A DNA stretch of 64,000 nt from Luteibacter sp. dw_328 (GTDB lineage: Bacteria; Pseudomonadota; Gammaproteobacteria; Xanthomonadales; Rhodanobacteraceae). Below, one piece after another: positions 8,224 through 16,601 of this stretch (the stretch's first letter is position 1; each line of letters opens with the position of its first letter). The notes beneath the pieces are model-generated. The model made no database searches and was not told the origin of the DNA. It saw nothing but the letters and a program-made list of their open reading frames with translations. Location of the stretch: NCBI RefSeq assembly GCF_018449605.1, contig NZ_JAAVUW010000005.1:124001-188000 (forward strand), written 5' to 3'. Both the position numbers and the translations under genes were made by a program.

Positions 8224-9426
8224 ATGCCCCATCCCATGCCTCCGCTTTCCATTCGCGCGTACACCGCCACTTCAGCCCTGGGCCGCGGGCTAGATGCCCA
8301 CGCCGACGCCCTGCGCTCCTCACGGGGCGGCCTTTCCCCCAACGACTTCAGTTCGGCGCCGCTCGACTGCTGGATCGGCCGCGTGGCCGGCCTGGAGGAC
8401 GAGCCACTGCCGGCGGAACTTGCCCAATGGGAGTGCCGCAACAACCGGCTGGCCTGGGTGGCACTGACCCAGGACGGCTTCATGGACGCGGTACGCGACG
8501 CACGTGAGCGCTATGGCGCGTCCCGGGTGGCCGTGCTGCTCGGCACGTCCACCTCCAGTATCGGCGCGACCGAGGAAGGCTACCGGCGTCTCGATCATGG
8601 CCGCATGCCGGAGGACCTGCATCGCCCTGTCCTGCATACCCCGCATTCGCTCGCGGGCTTCGTCGCCGCCGCGTTCGATCTCGAAGGGCCCTGCCTGACG
8701 GTGGCCACCGCGTGTTCGTCGAGCGCAAAAGTCTTCGGCAACGCCGAACGCATGATCCGACTCGGCCTGATCGACGCAGCGGTGGTCGGTGGCACCGATA
8801 CGCTGTGCGACAGCGTGCTGTTCGGCTTCAATTCGCTGGAGCTGGTTTCCGGTGAACCCTGCCGCCCTTTCGACGCGAACCGCAGTGGCATCTCGATCGG
8901 CGAAGCGGCCGGCTTTGCCTTGCTCGAGCGTGTGACCGATGGCAGTACGGGACCGCTTCTGATCGGCTACGGCGAAGCCAGCGACGCACACCACATGTCC
9001 ACGCCGCATCCGGAAGGCCTCGGCGCGGAGATCGCCTTGCGTGATGCGCTCGCCCGGGCTGGCATCGAAGCGGGCGATGTCGACTACATCAACCTGCACG
9101 GCACGGCGAGCCAGAAGAACGACGATGTCGAAGCCGCCCTTGTCGCCCGCAGCTTTCCTGCTACGACACGCGCGAGTTCGACGAAGGGCTTTACCGGTCA
9201 CACGCTTGGTGCGGCGGGCATGCTCGAGGCTGCGATCACCCTGCTCGCCATGCGGGACGGGCATGTTCCGGCAAACCTCGGCGCCACGACACCGGATCCG
9301 CTGTGCGGGCCGCAGATGGCCTGGACAGCCGAGCAGCGCGAGGTACGCATCGCGCTGAGCAACTCGTTCGGCTTCGGAGGGAACAATGCCTGCCTCGCGT
9401 TCGCCCGCGTGGGAGAGCCCGCATGA
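8224..9426 (+). CDS. Beta-ketoacyl-ACP synthase of xanthomonadin/aryl-polyene locus
   Basis: The 400-residue thiolase-fold condensing enzyme carries a complete Cys-His-His triad: Cys164 (TVATACSSSAKV), His292 (NLHGTASQKND) and His326 (STKGFTGHTLGAAG). It also has the C-terminal NSFGFGGNNA motif. It would extend an aryl-primed polyketide chain with malonyl-ACP. The next gene overlaps its stop by ATGA and encodes a chain-length-factor-like partner, so the two likely form the KS/CLF heterodimer found in aryl-polyene pathways. ATG at 8224 and an in-frame ATG at 8236 are both possible. This is the first gene of a tightly packed plus-strand set (8224-12610). Confidence 0.88.
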   Translation: MPHPMPPLSIRAYTATSALGRGLDAHADALRSSRGGLSPNDFSSAPLDCWIGRVAGLEDEPLPAELAQWECRNNRLAWVALTQDGFMDAVRDARERYGASRVAVLLGTSTSSIGATEEGYRRLDHGRMPEDLHRPVLHTPHSLAGFVAAAFDLEGPCLTVATACSSSAKVFGNAERMIRLGLIDAAVVGGTDTLCDSVLFGFNSLELVSGEPCRPFDANRSGISIGEAAGFALLERVTDGSTGPLLIGYGEASDAHHMSTPHPEGLGAEIALRDALARAGIEAGDVDYINLHGTASQKNDDVEAALVARSFPATTRASSTKGFTGHTLGAAGMLEAAITLLAMRDGHVPANLGATTPDPLCGPQMAWTAEQREVRIALSNSFGFGGNNACLAFARVGEPA

Positions 9427-10223
9427 GCGCTGCGCTGAGTGTGTGGGTAAAGGGCGTCGGCTTATGGGCGCCAGGCGCCGCGGACTGGCACGCGTTCTGC
9501 GAGATTGTCGCCGGTCGCGATGCGCCGGGCACGGAAGGGCGACCGATGGCGGATGTCCTTCCGCCCAACGAACGCCGGCGCGCACCGGAAAGCGTGCTTC
9601 TGGCCGCCGCCGTCGCCGGCCAGGCGGTCAGGATGAGTGGTCTCGAGGCGGCGGCTCTGCCCTGCGTCTTCGCTTCGGCGCACGGTGACCAGGCCATCAC
9701 CGATTACATGTGCGCGACACTCGCCGATACGCCGACCGAACTGTCGCCGACGAAGTTCCATAACTCAGTGCACAACGCGCCAGCCGGCTACTGGACGATC
9801 GCCACGCACTGCCACGCGAGCTCGAGTGCCGTGTCCGGCGGCGAGACGACATTCGGTGCCGGATTGCTCGAGGCGGCGACGCTCGCCGTGGCCGACGACC
9901 GCGACGTCCTGCTTGCCAGCTACGACATTGCCGGCGTGGGACCGCTCGGTGAGATGACGGCCACCACCGGGCCCTTTGCGATCGCCCTGGTGCTTTCGCC
10001 GCGAGCCGATGCGACAGCCGTACGCCTCGACATCACACCTTCGCCAGGAAACAGCGGCAGCCAGCCCACGGGCGACGCCTGGCTGGACAGCGTCGCCGCC
10101 AGCAATCCATCGGCGCAGGCGATCCCTTTGGCACACGCCCTTGCGTTGGCGCGCTCCACCGCGCTACGCGTCGCCGCGGCGCGTGAACTCGATATCCATG
10201 TCGACGTGGAGCTCGCTGCGTGA
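9423..10223 (+). CDS. Ketosynthase chain-length-factor-like protein (pigment locus)
   Basis: The 266-residue protein resembles the N-terminal half of ketosynthases (Ketoacyl-synt_2-like) with the motifs ASAHGDQAITDYMC, KFHNSVHNAPAGYWTIATHC and HASSSAVSGGETTFGAG. It is too short for a full ketosynthase and lacks the HGT and GHT histidine regions. It is therefore read as the partner (chain-length factor) of the ketosynthase it overlaps (ATGA at 9423). The next gene overlaps its stop too, as GTGA. The role in fixing polyene length is inferred from aryl-polyene systems. Confidence 0.8.
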   Translation: MSAALSVWVKGVGLWAPGAADWHAFCEIVAGRDAPGTEGRPMADVLPPNERRRAPESVLLAAAVAGQAVRMSGLEAAALPCVFASAHGDQAITDYMCATLADTPTELSPTKFHNSVHNAPAGYWTIATHCHASSSAVSGGETTFGAGLLEAATLAVADDRDVLLASYDIAGVGPLGEMTATTGPFAIALVLSPRADATAVRLDITPSPGNSGSQPTGDAWLDSVAASNPSAQAIPLAHALALARSTALRVAAARELDIHVDVELAA

Positions 10224-10996
10224 ACGCAAACGCCGAACGCTGCTGTGTCCTGATTCCCTGCCTCAACGAAGAGGGCGCGATCGGGCGGGTGGTGGGCGAA
10301 GCGCTCGCGCTGGGACTACCCGTCATCGTCGTTGACGACGGATCGAACGATCGGACGCCCGATATCGTCAGCGCCCTGCCCGTCACCCTGCTGCGTCACG
10401 CGACGCGCCGTGGCAAGGGCGAAGCCTTGCGCACCGGTTTTCGTGAAGTGCTTCGCCAGGGATTCGCTGCCGTGGTCACCATGGACGGCGATGGCCAGCA
10501 CCTTGCGTCCGACATCCCCGCCATCCTCGCGGCGAGCCGGGAGTATCCCGGAAGCATCGTCATCGGGGCTCGCATACTCGACCGCCACCAGCAACCCCCC
10601 GGTCGTCGCCGCGCCAACGCGGTCGCCGATTGGGGGATTTCCTGCGCCTGTGCGCAACCCATCGCGGATACACAGAGCGGACAGCGTCTGTATCCGCGCG
10701 CTGTCCTCGACCTGGTCGATATTCCCGCCGAGCATTTCGTCTTCGAGGCCGCCCTGCTCATCACTGCCTGTCGTGAACGTGGCACGCGCGTGGTCTCGGT
10801 GCCGATCGCTTCCCGTTACGAGGGCGACTTCAGGGTCAGCCATTTCAACCCTGTGCGTGATGTCACCCGGATAACGGTGTACACCGTGGGCCGGGTGTTT
10901 CACTACGGCAATTTCCTTGCAAGCTACCGACGCTCACGTTCGGCGCCGACGATCGTCGGCGCCACCGAATCGGCCGAGCCACGCACCGCACACTGA
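10220..10996 (+). CDS. Family 2 glycosyltransferase (pigment locus)
   Basis: The 258-residue GT-A enzyme has IPCLNEEGAIGRVV at the N-terminus, VVDDGSNDRT for the nucleotide-sugar site and the DxD region TMDGDGQHLASD near residues 90-100. It resembles polyprenyl-phosphate mannosyl/glucosyltransferases in its first 200 residues, but lacks C-terminal membrane helices. It starts at a GTG (10220) that overlaps the preceding stop, showing translational coupling with the ketosynthase partner. In this locus it probably glycosylates or transfers a headgroup to the polyene; the donor and acceptor are unknown. Confidence 0.85.
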   Translation: MNANAERCCVLIPCLNEEGAIGRVVGEALALGLPVIVVDDGSNDRTPDIVSALPVTLLRHATRRGKGEALRTGFREVLRQGFAAVVTMDGDGQHLASDIPAILAASREYPGSIVIGARILDRHQQPPGRRRANAVADWGISCACAQPIADTQSGQRLYPRAVLDLVDIPAEHFVFEAALLITACRERGTRVVSVPIASRYEGDFRVSHFNPVRDVTRITVYTVGRVFHYGNFLASYRRSRSAPTIVGATESAEPRTAH

Positions 10997-11011: not shown

Positions 11012-12610
11012 ATGGATCGTAAGCCGCACGACGCCGTCATCCTGGGAGGAGGCCTTGCCGGGCTCTCCCTCGCCATGCAGTTGAAGGGTGAATACCCGGA
11101 CATGGACATCGTGGTGCTCGAACGCCAGGCGCGCCCCCTGCCCGAGGCCGCGCACAAGGTGGGCGAATCGACCGTGGAGATCGCGGCGCATTACTTCGCC
11201 GACACACTTGGCCTCCGCGACCACCTCGAAAGCTCGCACATCCGCAAGTTCGGATTCCGGTTCTTCTTCTCCGAAGGCAAGGACGATCTCGCCGATGTGA
11301 CCGAGCTTGGCGTCAGCGCCGTCCTGCCGACGCCTAGCTACCAGATCGACCGCGGTATCCTCGAGAACTATCTCGGTGACGAGGCACGCCGTCGTGGCAT
11401 CGACTTCCGCGACGGCGTGACCGTACGTGGGTTCGACATAGGCGCGGGCGAGGCACCCCACACCGTTCGTGCTCGCGCGCAGGACGGCAGCGAAACCGTG
11501 CTGCAATCACGCTGGCTGCTCGATGCTTCCGGTCGCGCAGGCTTGATCCGGCGCAAGTTCGACTTCACGCGCGACAACGGCCATCATGCAAACGCCGTCT
11601 GGTTCCGGATCGATGACCGCCTGGAGATCGATGGCTGGTGTGACGATGCGGAATGGAAGGAACGTTGCCGGCCGCCCGAGCGCTGGCGTTCGACGAACCA
11701 TCTCTGCGGGCCAGGCTACTGGGTGTGGTTGATTCCGCTTTCCTCCGGCGCGCATTCGGTTGGCATCGTCGCCGATGCAGCCATGCATCCGATCGAAAAG
11801 ATGAAGACCTTCGACCTAGCCGTGCAGTGGCTCGAGGAACACCAGCCACTGGTTGCCCGGCAAGTGGTCAAGCGTCGTGAGAAGCTGCTGGATTTCGCCT
11901 TTTTCCGCAACTTCTCCTACAGCTGCTCCCGTATGTTCTCCTCGGATCGCTGGGCTCTCACTGGCGAAGCCGGCGCCTTCCTCGACCCCTTCTATTCCCC
12001 CGGCAGCGACTTCATCGCCATCGCCAACACGTACATCACGTTGCTGATCGGTCATGACCGTCGCGGCGAGAACGTGGCACCGCACGCGCGTCTCTACGAG
12101 CGGCTGTTCTTCTCCTTCTACGAAGGCACGTTGAAGATGTACCGCGGTCAGTACAACCTCTTCGGCGACGCGGAAGTACTGCCGATCAAGGTGATCTGGG
12201 ATTACGCGTACTACTGGGGCGTGCTCTGCCAGATCGTCTTCCAGAAGCGCCTTGGCGACAGCGCCTTCATCGCCAGGATGAGCGACGAACTGATCGCCGC
12301 GACCGAGTTGAACACGAAGGTGCAGGCATTCTTCCAGCCGTGGCACGTCGTGTCGGACGGACGCAATCGCAGGGTCATGCTCGACCAGCGCGATCTCGCG
12401 TGGTTCGCCGACATGAACAGCACGCTGCACGACGCGTTGGACGACGACACACTCGCGGAACGACTGCGCGAGAACGTCAGGATGATGCGCCTGCTCGCCG
12501 CGAGCATTGTCGAACGTGCGGTGGACGATCATCCCTCATTGCTCGAGGCGGCGGGCGATCTGGTCGACGTCGAAGGCGAGCGCACGGAACTGTTCGCGAG
12601 GGTTGCCTGA
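11012..12610 (+). CDS. FAD-dependent halogenase homologue (tryptophan-halogenase superfamily) in pigment locus
   Basis: The 532-residue flavoprotein has an N-terminal dinucleotide-binding motif (GGGLAGLSLAMQLK, residues 12-25). The conserved halogenase lysine is Lys79 in HIRKFGFRF, the same residue number as in PrnA and RebH. The halogenase WxWxIP motif is WVWLIP (237-242), and the FAD/halide-side motif is FLDPFYSPGSDF. These argue for halogenation rather than simple monooxygenation. Xanthomonadins are known brominated aryl polyenes, so bromination of the aryl head is the likely role. A reduced-flavin supplier is not adjacent. It is the last gene of the plus-strand pigment set. Confidence 0.85.
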   Translation: MDRKPHDAVILGGGLAGLSLAMQLKGEYPDMDIVVLERQARPLPEAAHKVGESTVEIAAHYFADTLGLRDHLESSHIRKFGFRFFFSEGKDDLADVTELGVSAVLPTPSYQIDRGILENYLGDEARRRGIDFRDGVTVRGFDIGAGEAPHTVRARAQDGSETVLQSRWLLDASGRAGLIRRKFDFTRDNGHHANAVWFRIDDRLEIDGWCDDAEWKERCRPPERWRSTNHLCGPGYWVWLIPLSSGAHSVGIVADAAMHPIEKMKTFDLAVQWLEEHQPLVARQVVKRREKLLDFAFFRNFSYSCSRMFSSDRWALTGEAGAFLDPFYSPGSDFIAIANTYITLLIGHDRRGENVAPHARLYERLFFSFYEGTLKMYRGQYNLFGDAEVLPIKVIWDYAYYWGVLCQIVFQKRLGDSAFIARMSDELIAATELNTKVQAFFQPWHVVSDGRNRRVMLDQRDLAWFADMNSTLHDALDDDTLAERLRENVRMMRLLAASIVERAVDDHPSLLEAAGDLVDVEGERTELFARVA

Positions 12611-12743: not shown

Positions 12744-13208
12744 TCAACGACTGGCGGTTGGACACACAGGCGCGTACTTATGATCGTAGTCATAGCGATA
12801 CTTGTGGATTAAGGCGTACCAACTGCGGTCGGCTTCAGGCACTACGGCGTCGATCTTGCTTTCCGCTTCATCGAGCGTCGGCCTGGCGACTGACATCGTC
12901 TTCCCAACCACCGCCGCGTCTCGATCCTTCAGGATGATCTCGATCTGCTCGATGGCAGCGACGGTCGCGTCCTTATGTTTCAGCGCCTCGTTCTTCTTCT
13001 TGTCATTGATGGTGTTGTAGAACTTGTCGCATACAGGCTGCGCGGATTCCGAAAGCCCCGCGTCGTCGGACGTATCGGATGCCTGCGCGACTGACGCTGA
13101 GGTCGATGGAAGCAGACCGTCGACATGACTGCTGGCTATAGCGGTGCCATTCAACAAGGCGCCAGCGACGATGCTGGAAAAGACCAGACCAGAAATCATT
13201 CTGCTCAT
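12744..13208 (-). CDS. Secreted protein of unknown function inside the pigment locus
   Basis: The 154-residue protein has a signal peptide (MSRMISGLVFSSIVAGALLNG, cleavage about residue 25). A Ser/Thr/Ala/Asp-rich linker follows, then a helical region (about 60-145) with two cysteines, PVCDKFYNT and APVCPTASR, placed to form one disulfide across the domain. There is no recognisable family and no catalytic motif. It lies downstream of the minus-strand dehydratase gene (117 bp apart) and converges with the halogenase gene. Exported small proteins in polyene loci may help carry or anchor the pigment at the outer membrane, but that is inference. Confidence 0.7.
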   Translation of the reverse strand: MSRMISGLVFSSIVAGALLNGTAIASSHVDGLLPSTSASVAQASDTSDDAGLSESAQPVCDKFYNTINDKKKNEALKHKDATVAAIEQIEIILKDRDAAVVGKTMSVARPTLDEAESKIDAVVPEADRSWYALIHKYRYDYDHKYAPVCPTASR

Positions 13209-13324: not shown

Positions 13325-13768
13325 TCAGCGAGACGGATGGATGACCGCAGCGCGTCCCGAGGCGAGCTCCTCGCCGCTGTGCAAGACGCGAAACAGATAC
13401 TGCGCACCGTTCTCGTCAGCGATCAGGCACTCGGCGTAAACGTCGAGTACGCCTTCCCGATTATCGATCCGCTGTGCGGAGAGTTTCACCCCGCGCAGAC
13501 TCACCAGCATGCCGGGCCGAGGGGCCGTCTCGCCACGCTCGCGTCCGCGCAAGGCACCATGCACCGCCATGGCCTGGGCGCCATACTCGGCGAGGTGGAC
13601 AGCGTGCAGTCCGCGCTCACTCCGCAAGGGATGAGTGTCGAGCACGTGACTGACGCTCGTCGCATGAATCGACGTGTCGTCCCACGAGAGAACGCCGTCG
13701 AGCAGGCACATATCGCCGGCATGGGGAATGAGGTCGATGAAGTCAGTCTTGGCGAGCATGGTGGCCAT
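13325..13768 (-). CDS. 3-hydroxyacyl-ACP dehydratase, hotdog fold (ApeP/XanG type)
   Basis: The 147-residue hotdog protein has the dehydratase N-terminal motif DLIPHAGDMCLLDGVLSWD, carrying the active-site histidine. VHLAEYGAQAMAVHGAL carries the acidic residue on the long helix, and the C-terminal strand region is QYLFRVLHSG. It matches the aryl-polyene ApeP-like dehydratases that remove water during each chain-extension cycle. It is the third dehydratase/acyltransferase-type gene read on the minus strand and follows the acyltransferase gene by 29 bp. Confidence 0.82.
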   Translation of the reverse strand: MATMLAKTDFIDLIPHAGDMCLLDGVLSWDDTSIHATSVSHVLDTHPLRSERGLHAVHLAEYGAQAMAVHGALRGRERGETAPRPGMLVSLRGVKLSAQRIDNREGVLDVYAECLIADENGAQYLFRVLHSGEELASGRAAVIHPSR

Positions 13769-13797: not shown

Positions 13798-14751
13798 TCA
13801 GGCGTCTGGCTGGCCGGACGCATGAACGGCCCCAACGCCAGCCGACTCGTCGGCAGGGGTGGTTTCTTGCCAGAAGTCGTAGAAATTGAACCAGTTGAAG
13901 GGATAGACGCGAGCGTAGTGCTCGAGACGCGCCGCAAAACGACCGATAACGGCATCCAGCTCCAGCTTCCGGTTCGCACGCGGAATATCGATGCCGTCGG
14001 AGAACGCTTCGAAGATGAGCTTGTAACGGTTACCGCCCAGATAGATGCCCATGCACAGCACCACGGGGATCTTCAGCGCCGATGCCAGGAGCCACGGGCC
14101 GGCGGGAAACGGCGCGGGCGTGCCCAGGAACGGCAGCATTCGCGTGGTCTCGTTCTGATGGCCCCGATCGGCCAGCAAGGCCACCATGCCGCCCTGCTGC
14201 GTGCTTTCCGCCATTGCCAGGGCAACCGACGTGCCGCCGAGCGCGGCGTCGATGACTGCTGCGCCAACGTCTGGCGCCAGGGCTTCGAGTATGGCCGTGA
14301 GTGCAGGGGTCTTCTGTTTGTCGAGCACCACACGCAGGGGCACGTCGGGACGACGACCACCGAGCGCGCGCAGCGCCTCAAAACTTCCCTGGTGCGAGCC
14401 GATCAGCAGCACGCCCTGACGCGCGTCGAGATAGTTATCGAGGATGGCCAGGCCCTCGACATCGACAACGAAGTCGCGCTCGCCGTGGGCGAGGAAAAAC
14501 AGGCGATCGAGCAGGGTCGCCGCGAACATGTGGATGTGGTGGAAAACATCCCATGAGGTCACGGGGCGATTGAGTACCCGCGCGAGGTAACGGCGCGAAG
14601 CATCCCGCTCGTCGGCACGACGCAGGAAGAAATAGAACGTGATGGGATACAGCAGCAGGCGCGCGACGGGGCGGCCGAGGCGCAGCGCAATGGTGCGAAT
14701 CACCCAGATGGCGAACAACCCACCGCCTTCGCGCTGCTTCCAGTGGCTCAT
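13798..14751 (-). CDS. LpxL/HtrB-like acyltransferase (pigment locus)
   Basis: The 317-residue member of the lysophospholipid/lipid A acyltransferase family has the H-x4-E catalytic motif in IGSHQGSFEALRAL and an N-terminal membrane-associating region (AIWVIRTIALRLGRPVARLL). Further conserved blocks are ALLADRGHQNETTR and the LGTPAPFPAGP substrate-side loop. In aryl-polyene loci such enzymes esterify the polyene to a lipid or glycerol anchor. It overlaps the start of the upstream hotdog gene by 4 bp, so translation is coupled. Confidence 0.85.
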   Translation of the reverse strand: MSHWKQREGGGLFAIWVIRTIALRLGRPVARLLLYPITFYFFLRRADERDASRRYLARVLNRPVTSWDVFHHIHMFAATLLDRLFFLAHGERDFVVDVEGLAILDNYLDARQGVLLIGSHQGSFEALRALGGRRPDVPLRVVLDKQKTPALTAILEALAPDVGAAVIDAALGGTSVALAMAESTQQGGMVALLADRGHQNETTRMLPFLGTPAPFPAGPWLLASALKIPVVLCMGIYLGGNRYKLIFEAFSDGIDIPRANRKLELDAVIGRFAARLEHYARVYPFNWFNFYDFWQETTPADESAGVGAVHASGQPDA

Positions 14752-15062
14752 GCGGTCGCTTCCAGGGTGCCGCGCAGCAAGAGGTCGGCGCCGCGACGAA
14801 TCGTGAAGCGATAGCGTGAATCGGCCAGGGCGATCAGTTCCAGCTCGGCGTCTTCATCCGGCAGCAGGGGCGCCAGGAACTTCGCGTCGATCACCTGGCG
14901 CACGCCAGCCATGCGCCAGTCACGCAGTGCCTCAGCGGCCTGCTCGATCAGGAGCACGCCGGCGACGATGGGCCGCCCCGGAAAGTGACCGGCAAAGCTC
15001 GGGTGTGCCGCGTCGAAGCGCAGCGGGCGAACGTAGGACGCGATGTCGGCGGTGTCGGTCAA
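14748..15062 (-). CDS. Short hotdog-fold dehydratase (ApeI/FabZ-like)
   Basis: The 104-residue hotdog protein has HPSFAGHFPGRPIVAGVLLIE near the N-terminus, which is the FabA/FabZ active-site signature (H-x-x-F-x-G-H-F-P) with its histidine. Only the first half of a FabZ chain is matched, as in the short ApeI-like dehydratases of polyene pathways. It lies 102 bp downstream of the carrier protein gene on the same strand and overlaps the acyltransferase gene by 4 bp. Confidence 0.8.
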   Translation of the reverse strand: MTDTADIASYVRPLRFDAAHPSFAGHFPGRPIVAGVLLIEQAAEALRDWRMAGVRQVIDAKFLAPLLPDEDAELELIALADSRYRFTIRRGADLLLRGTLEATA

Positions 15063-15164: not shown

Positions 15165-15437
15165 TCAGGCCGTGGCGCGATGCTGTTCGATATGCTCCGA
15201 GAGCAACCGAAGGTTCGTGAAGATGGTGCGATTGTCCGGGTTGTCGGACTTCAGCTGGAAGCCGTAACGCTTGGACACGGCCAGCGCGATTTCCAGCGCA
15301 TCGATCGAGTCCAGACCGAGGTCGCCGCCGAACAGGGGCGCCTCGGGATCGATGTCACCCGGTTTCACGGCCTCGAGGTTGAGGCTCGTGACGATCAGTT
15401 CTGCCAGTTCTTTCTGTGCTGCGGTTTGCGTTGCCAT
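15165..15437 (-). CDS. Acyl carrier protein (aryl-polyene type)
   Basis: The 90-residue carrier protein has the phosphopantetheine site in LGLDSIDALE (Ser44). Acidic helix II and a C-terminal helix follow. The start at 15437 (MATQTAAQKE) has GGAAAGA at the right distance; the longer open frame upstream is not needed. It would carry the aryl starter and growing polyene, working with the ketosynthase pair and dehydratases of this locus. It is the first gene of the minus-strand pigment set and is divergent from xanB2, with a 177-bp region between them that must hold both promoters. Confidence 0.88.
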   Translation of the reverse strand: MATQTAAQKELAELIVTSLNLEAVKPGDIDPEAPLFGGDLGLDSIDALEIALAVSKRYGFQLKSDNPDNRTIFTNLRLLSEHIEQHRATA

Positions 15438-15614
15438 GTGGTCTTTCCAGGTCCCGGATATACCTGCCTCCCCCCGGATGGCAGCGACCGGGCAGATTAC
15501 CACAGAGCCGTTCGCCGACCGTTCGCAGCCGTTCAGCGTCGTGAAGCGACCGGGTCCACACGCCGCGCTGACAACGGAACGATATGATGGCCCTGACGAC
15601 TACCGGAATACCCG

Positions 15615-16601
15615 ATGCCCCCAGGCAGTGAAATGCGCGAGCGCTCGCCGCTCACCGCCCCTCCCGCGCCCACGGTGACCTACCGGACTCTTCCCGGCGC
15701 GTTATCCCGCGGCACGCTCGCCGCCTTCGGCTTCGGCCGTCAAGCTGCCGACCATGACGATCCACGCTGGCTGCGCGTTGCCCTTGAACCGCTGGGCTCC
15801 GGCCTGGAGGAGGTCTGGGAAGTCGATGCGGAGGTGACCTGCGGCCGCGATGGCGACTTGCGCTGGTCGCGGGGCGGAGGCTGGTTGTTCGTCGCGGTGG
15901 AGTGCCGGGAGAGCGATCACGGTGGCACCGAGGCGGCGGCGGACCACGCCTACGGGCTGCTGTCGCGGTTCGTCGCGGCCTGCGATGAGCGCCATGTGCA
16001 ACGCATCTGGAATTACCTCGACGCCATCAACGAAGGATCGGGTGACGACGAGCGCTACAAGCGTTTCTGCACAGGCCGGATTCGCGGCATGGGTGACGTC
16101 TTCGCCCAGGGCTTTCCGGCCGCCACGGCGATCGGGCACCACGGGGATCCGGGCCTGTTGCAGGTTTACCTGCTCGCCACGGACCGACCCGGCACGCGTG
16201 TGGAGAATCCACGTCAGGTCAGCGCCTGGCGTTACCCCCGTCAGTACGGTCGTACGCCGCCGAGCTTCGCACGCGCCACGTTACTGCCGGCCGACGACGT
16301 ACTGGCAATCTCGGGGACGGCGGCGGTCGTCGGCCACGCGTCGGCGCACGCGGGCGACATGGCGGCTCAGCTGGGCGAGACGTTGCGGAACCTCGATATG
16401 TTGCTGGTGACCAGCGGGCTTCCCGCCGGTTTCGATCGACTGGCCCCGCTGAAGGTCTATGTGCGACATCCCCAGGACGAACCGGTGGTTCGCGCCTTCG
16501 CCGCGCGGCACCTTCCGGACGCGCCGCTGCTGCTGGTCCATGGCGATATCTGCCGCTCCGAGTTGCTCGTTGAAATCGATGGCTGGCGCTACCGGGCCTG
16601 A
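15615..16601 (+). CDS. xanB2: Chorismatase / hydroxybenzoate synthase (XanB2 type)
   Basis: The 328-residue protein is of the Hyg5/FkbO/XanB2 chorismatase family. Conserved blocks are QRIWNYLDAINEGSGDDERY, FCTGRIRG, FPAATAIGHHGD, QVSAWRYPRQYGRTPPSFAR and the C-terminal CRSELLVEIDG. In Xanthomonas XanB2 cleaves chorismate to 3- and 4-hydroxybenzoate, feeding xanthomonadin and ubiquinone synthesis respectively. Placement beside the carrier protein and ketosynthase genes supports a supply role for the aryl starter. An alternative ATG lies six codons in. A ubiC gene is not seen in the window. Confidence 0.9.
   Translation: MPPGSEMRERSPLTAPPAPTVTYRTLPGALSRGTLAAFGFGRQAADHDDPRWLRVALEPLGSGLEEVWEVDAEVTCGRDGDLRWSRGGGWLFVAVECRESDHGGTEAAADHAYGLLSRFVAACDERHVQRIWNYLDAINEGSGDDERYKRFCTGRIRGMGDVFAQGFPAATAIGHHGDPGLLQVYLLATDRPGTRVENPRQVSAWRYPRQYGRTPPSFARATLLPADDVLAISGTAAVVGHASAHAGDMAAQLGETLRNLDMLLVTSGLPAGFDRLAPLKVYVRHPQDEPVVRAFAARHLPDAPLLLVHGDICRSELLVEIDGWRYRA

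Follow-up and report, generated by a model that had tools for sequence, protein, structure and literature searches.

A flavin-dependent halogenase-like protein encoded in the xanthomonadin-type aryl-polyene locus of Luteibacter sp. dw_328 is a candidate pigment-tailoring enzyme

The window analysed is a stretch of 64,000 nucleotides from Luteibacter sp. dw_328 (contig NZ_JAAVUW010000005.1, positions 124,001 to 188,000). It contains a xanthomonadin-type aryl-polyene locus in which four genes follow each other on the same strand in the order KS-CLF-GT2-HAL. The beta-ketoacyl-ACP synthase gene (KS; 8236-9426, +, its start being picked from the conserved extent) encodes a protein matching PF00109 and PF02801, with PRK09185 above cut-off. 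It is overlapped by the gene of a chain-length-factor-like protein (CLF; 9423-10223, +), identified by PF13723 on a longer ORF (9303-10223) and by the genome survey. CLF is in turn overlapped by a GT2 glycosyltransferase gene (10220-10996, +; PF00535, 73.9 bits). A spacer of 15 bases separates the GT2 stop at 10996 from HAL (11012-12610, +), the fourth gene, which encodes a flavin-dependent halogenase-like protein recognised by its ORF, motifs, Pfam and PDB matches and structural model. KS, CLF, GT2 and HAL would form a single transcript. Beyond HAL lie genes for an ApeP-like dehydratase (13325-13768, -; PF22817, 32.3 bits), an LpxL-type acyltransferase (AT; 13798-14751, -; PF03279, 38 bits), a FabA/ApeI-like dehydratase (14748-15062, -; PF07977 and PF22818, both below cut-offs, conserved in the locus) and an acyl carrier protein (ACP; 15165-15503, -; PF00550, 34 bits), followed by a XanB2-type chorismatase (3-/4-hydroxybenzoate; 15615-16601, +) with PF21168 above cut-off and TIGR04444 at 186.8 bits, below the cut-off of 325. 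The preliminary description had proposed a halogenase-like enzyme in an aryl-polyene operon with a GT2 gene, and the gene content bears this out, with KS, CLF and GT2 upstream and the dehydratases, ACP, AT and XanB2 around. Luteibacter genomes with xanthomonadin-type clusters are described in the available parts of PMC9965599 and PMC11165876.

An unassigned ORF of 154 aa (12744-13208, -) lies between HAL and ApeP. The spacing between ApeP and AT is 29 bases in the window; in the related locus of G010 this place is taken by an ORF of 811 residues (L121:6765-9200, -), absent from the window, which by its position is perhaps a pigment exporter. The host genome also contains a weaker second CLF-like match (G000:C15:474435-474986, 35%, 2.1e-14), possibly the trace of another aryl-polyene or fatty-acid cluster of the kind listed for Luteibacter mycovicinus.

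HAL (H-type) is an intact flavoprotein ORF of 532 codons from ATG, with 0 internal stops. Its 532-residue product matched PF04820 (Trp_halogenase, 43.9 bits) and PF01494 (FAD_binding_3, 36.7 bits), both above cut-offs. The top NCBIfam model was the chloramphenicol halogenase CmlS; because the score of 76 bits is far below the cut-off of 900 bits, HAL is to be seen as a relative of CmlS and not as CmlS. The single-sequence matches among PDB sequences were 3nix, CmlS (8.3e-17), CndH and PltA. Four motifs were located in the translation: the FAD dinucleotide motif GxGxxG (GGGLAG, residues 12-17; 11045-11062, +), a lysine aligned with the catalytic lysine of halogenases (K79; 11246-11248, +), the WxWxIP motif (WVWLIP, residues 237-242; 11720-11737, +) and, by alignment, an Fx.Px.Sx.G motif with a proline at position 330 (FLDPFYSPG, residues 323-331; 11978-12004, +). 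The lysine at 79 and WVWLIP at 237-242 were thus read where they had been claimed. The last motif belongs to the stretch F323-LDPFYSPGSDF-334, of which FYSPGSDF covers residues 327-334; Fx.Px.Sx.G is described as a halogenase motif in the accessible text of PMC8407142.

The conservation of these motifs was analysed in an alignment of 108 H-type rows, which represent 97 distinct sequences (two collections both supplied 11 of the genomes). A non-seeded search contributed 28 of the distinct sequences and a scan that used G[AVL]FLDPFY or WDY[ASC]YYW as seeds contributed 80, with 11 common to both. Across all rows, 83 of the 532 columns of HAL were invariant, including G12, G14, G17, K49, K79, W237, W239, I241, P242, F323, P326, Y328, S329, P330 and G331. 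Conservation in F323-Y328 and W396-W402 was partly selected for, since the scan was seeded on those motifs; K79, WxWxIP and P330 lie outside the seeds and were kept as well in each of the 28 distinct sequences that the non-seeded search gave. As judged by alignment, the motifs of HAL are not due to chance. The lysine at position 79 was found in 12/12 H rows and 0/9 monooxygenases, in 7/8 solved references (the eighth, CtcP, was misaligned there and has a lysine under K79 in the HMMER alignment), and in 7/7 rows of XanB1-type proteins. The latter have about 430 aa, are encoded beside XanB2, are typically 24-32% identical to H and mostly have a canonical SSG loop. The link that had been drawn from K79 and WxWxIP to halogenation stood in so far as both aligned with halogenases, but they appear to be class-level marks, common to the XanB1-type paralogue.

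The closest named relatives of HAL were from Luteibacter, with 94% identity in Luteibacter sp. OK325 and 73-82% in nine more records (two of them MAGs), and the gene was present in 21 of 23 Luteibacter genomes, the host genome counted. Five Xanthomonas records encoded H-type proteins 54-55% identical to HAL, and orthologues adjoining KS-CLF were found in Xanthomonas, Variovorax and Steroidobacter relatives. Neighbours were recorded in 80 named H loci with flanks of up to 10 kb. Because many flanks were cut, the counts are lower bounds: CLF in at least 74 loci, KS in at least 72, GT2 in at least 55, XanB2 in at least 30 and XanB1-like genes in at least 12 (ten at least 44% identical to the query and two, L082 and L111, at 31%). 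CLF was upstream of HAL on the same strand in 74/80 loci; of the remaining six, L036, L066, L069 and L080 had less than 2.3 kb upstream, and L078 and L100 are real exceptions. The order KS-CLF-GT2-HAL-ApeP was found in all five Xanthomonas loci, and Variovorax-type loci were mostly KS-CLF-HAL without GT2. On these comparisons HAL is assigned as the Luteibacter orthologue of the halogenase H of Xanthomonas xanthomonadin clusters, an ordinary and well-supported case; it is ordinary as a gene because the xanthomonadin-cluster halogenase is already annotated in print, as the consulted passages of PMC3691225 and PMC3838355 indicate.

Across the class, sampled evenly with 369 genomes, 8 genomes had H-type genes and 67 had XanB2, and all 8 H genomes contained XanB2; with the host genome left out the figure was 7/7 (hypergeometric P 4.5e-6, kinship not corrected). 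The two genes were not close to each other, 0/8 H genes lying within 2 kb of XanB2 (3/8 on contigs without XanB2). Weaker halogenase-like matches (24-32%) were found in 47/369 genomes, 26 of which contained XanB2; in 17 of the 47 the match lay within 2 kb of XanB2, and 16 of these 17 genomes were without H. The XanB1-type label was given to these 17 because of where they lie; the 30 that remain may be halogenase-like proteins of other kinds. Further samples contained H-type genes in 9/21 genomes (family f154), 0/38 genomes (family f147) and 1/3 genomes (a small order).

Two of the 23 Luteibacter genomes (G016 and G018) were without HAL and kept the other 11 query genes of the window locus in order (hemF, DUF218, KS, CLF, GT2, ApeP, AT, ApeI, ACP, XanB2 and glmU). 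The KS-CLF-GT2-to-XanB2 set was also kept without HAL in G023 (same family) and in G025 and G036 (same order), and in G025 a XanB1-type gene was present; G024 lacked HAL together with KS and CLF in that stretch. The place of HAL is occupied in G016 by an ORF of 429 residues, transporter-like by eye, and in G018 by about 230 bases between matched stretches. A search for HAL remnants in the gaps of five HAL-less loci (L115-L119) gave no convincing match (best E 2.7). Within the G018 gap (L116:11546-11780), an inverted repeat resembling a REP element was read by eye; its core was not enriched in the window (6 matches versus 4.8 expected). Since the gene can be missing alone, HAL fits tailoring and not chain assembly, and it looks like a tailoring step of the pigment pathway. 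This fits what the available part of PMC3691225 reports: two Xanthomonas clusters contain a halogenase gene, which is missing from Lysobacter enzymogenes and Xylella, and the L. enzymogenes pigment gave no bromine isotope ions.

The position of H among flavoproteins was analysed by profile, fold and tree. A family profile made of 42 sequences (HAL itself plus sequences from 41 of the 80 named loci) had 19 matches among solved sequences at E<=1e-6, of which 18 were named halogenases (CmlS as alkylhalidase, ChlB4 by name); the sole non-halogenase was 3nix, named as a flavoprotein/dehydrogenase. Matches with E from 7e-26 to 2e-7 included CmlS (the top match, 7.3e-26), PltA, ChlB4, FasV, Bmp2, CndH, CtcP, Mpy16, MalA' (1.5e-13), RadH and PltM, with tryptophan halogenases starting at 8.4e-6 and monooxygenases at 7.7e-5. 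In keeping with the distance from indole halogenases proposed earlier, CmlS, 3nix, PltA, ChlB4, FasV, Bmp2 and CndH, in this order, came ahead of tryptophan halogenases such as PrnA and RebH; the tree has H outside them. MalA' acts on an indole alkaloid, and because it also matches, the substrate class is not readable from the matches.

The AlphaFold2 model of HAL had a mean pLDDT of 92.5. Among the best 50 Foldseek rows listed, rows 1-45 were halogenases or 3nix, the top match being CtcP (7.6e-23), and VibMO1 and KMO came 46th and 47th. VIA-align ranked halogenases and 3nix as entries 1-18 (Z 26.8-29.4), the first monooxygenase being PqsL (Z 25.7) and CmlS coming 48th (Z 24.6). The predicted fold is thus halogenase-like, but with the best Z of 29.4 against 25.7 and CmlS in 48th place, fold alone splits halogenases from monooxygenases modestly. 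A tree of 36 rows, from which the XanB1-type row of L054 (cut by its contig) was left out, placed H in a clade of its own (100/100) on a long branch (2.18), and no solved or characterised member was found in this clade. The other halogenases were grouped without H (84/74), a branching order that is unsure because the tree tool warned of long branches meeting. The phylogeny suggested as a check did not put HAL among plain monooxygenases. Collectively, sequence, predicted fold and tree indicate that HAL belongs with the flavin-dependent halogenases, apart from nine monooxygenases of the host genome.

The carrier-bound halogenases PltA, CndH, Mpy16, Bmp2 and ChlB4 have the same FAD-binding fold as HAL, and all of these except Bmp2 were seen to have the lysine, WxWxIP and Fx.Px.Sx.G as in HAL. 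They differ in that their identity to HAL is about 15-22% and their loop reads S-G or Y-G where HAL has P-G, and the 84/74 grouping in the tree leaves H outside them. CmlS and CtcP belong to pathways different from that of HAL and have Q-G and R-G at the P330 position. The tryptophan halogenases PrnA, RebH and BrvH, whose catalytic lysine is described in PMC5945002 as far as its text was available, share the S-x-G core with HAL; their profile matches to the HAL family are weak. The claim that the halide-side motif is unlike that of indole or tryptophan halogenases held on comparison of DPFYSPG in HAL with EPLESTG in a Trp-halogenase-family protein of the host (L150), whose Glu and Thr correspond to Tyr328 and Pro330. 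The essential glutamate of tryptophan halogenases (PrnA E346) would accordingly be missing in H, which has Y328 in all 108 rows, an equivalence read from the motif. L150 is encoded by a separate gene of the host genome (G000:C1:598829-600229, 427 bits for PF04820) and has WIWDIG in place of WxWxIP; its nearest solved match was 2pyx, with PrnA and RebH further down.

Xanthomonadin I carries two bromines, on the aryl ring and at the chain end. With a probability of about 0.65, we propose that HAL is an FADH2-dependent halogenase decorating the xanthomonadin-type aryl polyene of the neighbouring type II PKS, most likely by brominating the ACP-bound aryl polyene as a tailoring enzyme. We infer the catalysis, the bromide, the ACP-bound substrate and the site and number of halogens; the ACP and KS-CLF in the locus are a circumstantial pointer to a carrier-bound substrate. 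An unlinked flavin reductase would supply FADH2, which would react with O2 to give a C4a-hydroperoxide. This would oxidise a halide, probably bromide, to hypohalous acid, which could pass through a tunnel near W237-P242 and F323-G331 to K79. The lysine would then place the hypohalous acid so that it attacks the ACP-bound intermediate at an electron-rich carbon of the aryl or polyene part. Points that speak against this proposal are P330, the long branch of the H clade, the modest split by fold, the closer match of XanB1-type proteins to known halogenases, the additional Trp-halogenase-family gene (L150) of the host, and the non-brominated pigment of Azoarcus BH72 despite an annotated halogenase. 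No experimental test of HAL or H activity was found in the literature searched.

An active pigment-pathway halogenase might instead use a free small substrate (3-hydroxybenzoate not yet loaded, or pigment after release) or might use chloride. Among the top structural neighbours of HAL were CtcP and PltM, both of which take free substrates, and XanB2 next door makes free 3-HBA. CmlS, the best profile match, is listed as variant A in a table of the PMC8407142 excerpt. Against this reading, CLF precedes HAL in 74 of the 80 loci, no H gene of the class sample was near XanB2 (0/8 within 2 kb, 3/8 on contigs without XanB2), and xanthomonadins are described as brominated in the available parts of PMC3691225 and PMC3949708. 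We regard this alternative as unlikely.

A second alternative concerns the XanB1-type flavoprotein, which is found in the same loci as H. This paralogue could be the pigment brominase, with H performing other flavin chemistry such as hydroxylation or polyene-end oxidation. The XanB1-type protein has the lysine, WxWxIP and mostly an SSG loop, and it matches solved halogenases far better than H does (the G025 copy matched FasV at 5.9e-64, versus 8.3e-17 for H with CmlS). In H, the halide-contact position is held by proline without exception. All seven XanB1-type rows fell with solved halogenases in the tree, six of them forming a single clade and L111 joining 3nix. A XanB1-type gene was at or beside XanB2 in L096, L101, L104, L071, L052 and L118. 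Among the Xanthomonas loci, L096 and L101 have this gene in addition to H and L109 and L110 have neither it nor XanB2 within the available stretch; the L105 locus contains H together with XanB2, and its flank is free of XanB1-type genes, which argues against the paralogue as brominase. Two further results point the same way: a search of the host Luteibacter genome for a XanB1-type match returned none, and 16 of the 17 genomes with a weaker halogenase-like gene within 2 kb of XanB2 lack H.

The published pigments bear on the same question. In the consulted text of PMC3838355, the cluster of X. axonopodis pv. manihotis is annotated with both halogenase H and XanB1 (putative reductase/halogenase). 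Steroidobacter cummioxidans 35Y is described with a dibrominated pigment (PMC5979037, excerpt); H is present in its relatives Steroidobacter sp. (L082) and Peristeroidobacter soli (L111), the 35Y genome itself being outside our set. In Azoarcus BH72, arcA (azo3921) is an annotated halogenase gene adjoining the XanB2 gene arcB, and arcuflavin is non-brominated according to the available part of PMC3949708. By gene order, arcA is more likely XanB1-type, because a position within 2 kb of XanB2 was seen for 17/47 weaker halogenase-like genes and for 0/8 H genes. In that case XanB1-type proteins would not give bromine by themselves, which suggests that XanB1 is insufficient and favours H; if arcA is H, the argument reverses. 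A XanB1-type brominase is on this evidence improbable, and the literature searched gave no experimental answer on which enzyme brominates xanthomonadins. The question is directly testable in Luteibacter, an environmental genus that offers a clean test case with one H-type gene, no XanB1-type match and two relatives lacking only HAL of the pathway set.

That HAL is a plain FAD monooxygenase or reductase merely resembling halogenases is very improbable: the overall fold is the same (PqsL and PHBH at Z of about 25 against a best of 29.4) and FAD_binding_3 also exceeds its Pfam cut-off, but nine FAD monooxygenases of the host genome formed another clade (100/100) and are without K79, WxWxIP and Fx.Px.Sx.G, all present in HAL.

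Returning to HAL as a putative brominating halogenase, its proline 330 would bear on how such enzymes bind and choose halide. All 97 distinct H homologues have Pro at this position, and 16 of 17 other halogenase-like proteins scanned have Ser, the remaining one having Pro. The scan of loci gave 120 distinct halogenase-like ORFs, of which 102 read Tyr-Ser-Pro, 16 Phe-Ser-Ser and 2 others had Pro. The solved halogenases that were compared carry S, Q, T, R or Y here. The halide of RebH is held by the backbone NH of T359 and G360, as the accessible part of PMC5945002 describes, and T359 would be the x of S-x-G, hence the equivalent of P330. A proline without this NH implies that the halide site is rebuilt or that halide binding is weaker. 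P330 also aligns with Y302 of Bmp2, which is changed to Ser in a triple mutant (from the structure title, the numbering offset being deduced); this mutant proceeds less far than the wild type, according to a review (PMC8407142, excerpt).

The two further proline cases are a Gloeothece relative of H (L149) and a XanB1-like ORF in L122 (G390). We considered that proline at 330 might be found only in H among halogenases, and rejected this because of the L122 ORF, which has 460 residues with WSWQIP and FVDPMLSPG and does not belong to the H clade, although H is present in its genome too. Proline 330 thus appears typical of H and not exclusive to it. It is conceivable, though rather doubtful, that the H-type proteins form a halogenase subfamily of their own, dedicated to bromide through a halide site rebuilt by P330 and halogenating the ACP-bound chain on its aryl ring as well as on its polyene; the proline of the L122 ORF lowers the odds. 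The subfamily may reach beyond aryl polyenes, because in Janthinobacterium an SPG-type relative lies in the vicinity of a type I PKS and in Gloeothece another one adjoins hpaB. Both of these distant relatives are plasmid genes, L148 of Janthinobacterium at 39.9% and L149 of the cyanobacterium Gloeothece at 34.9%.
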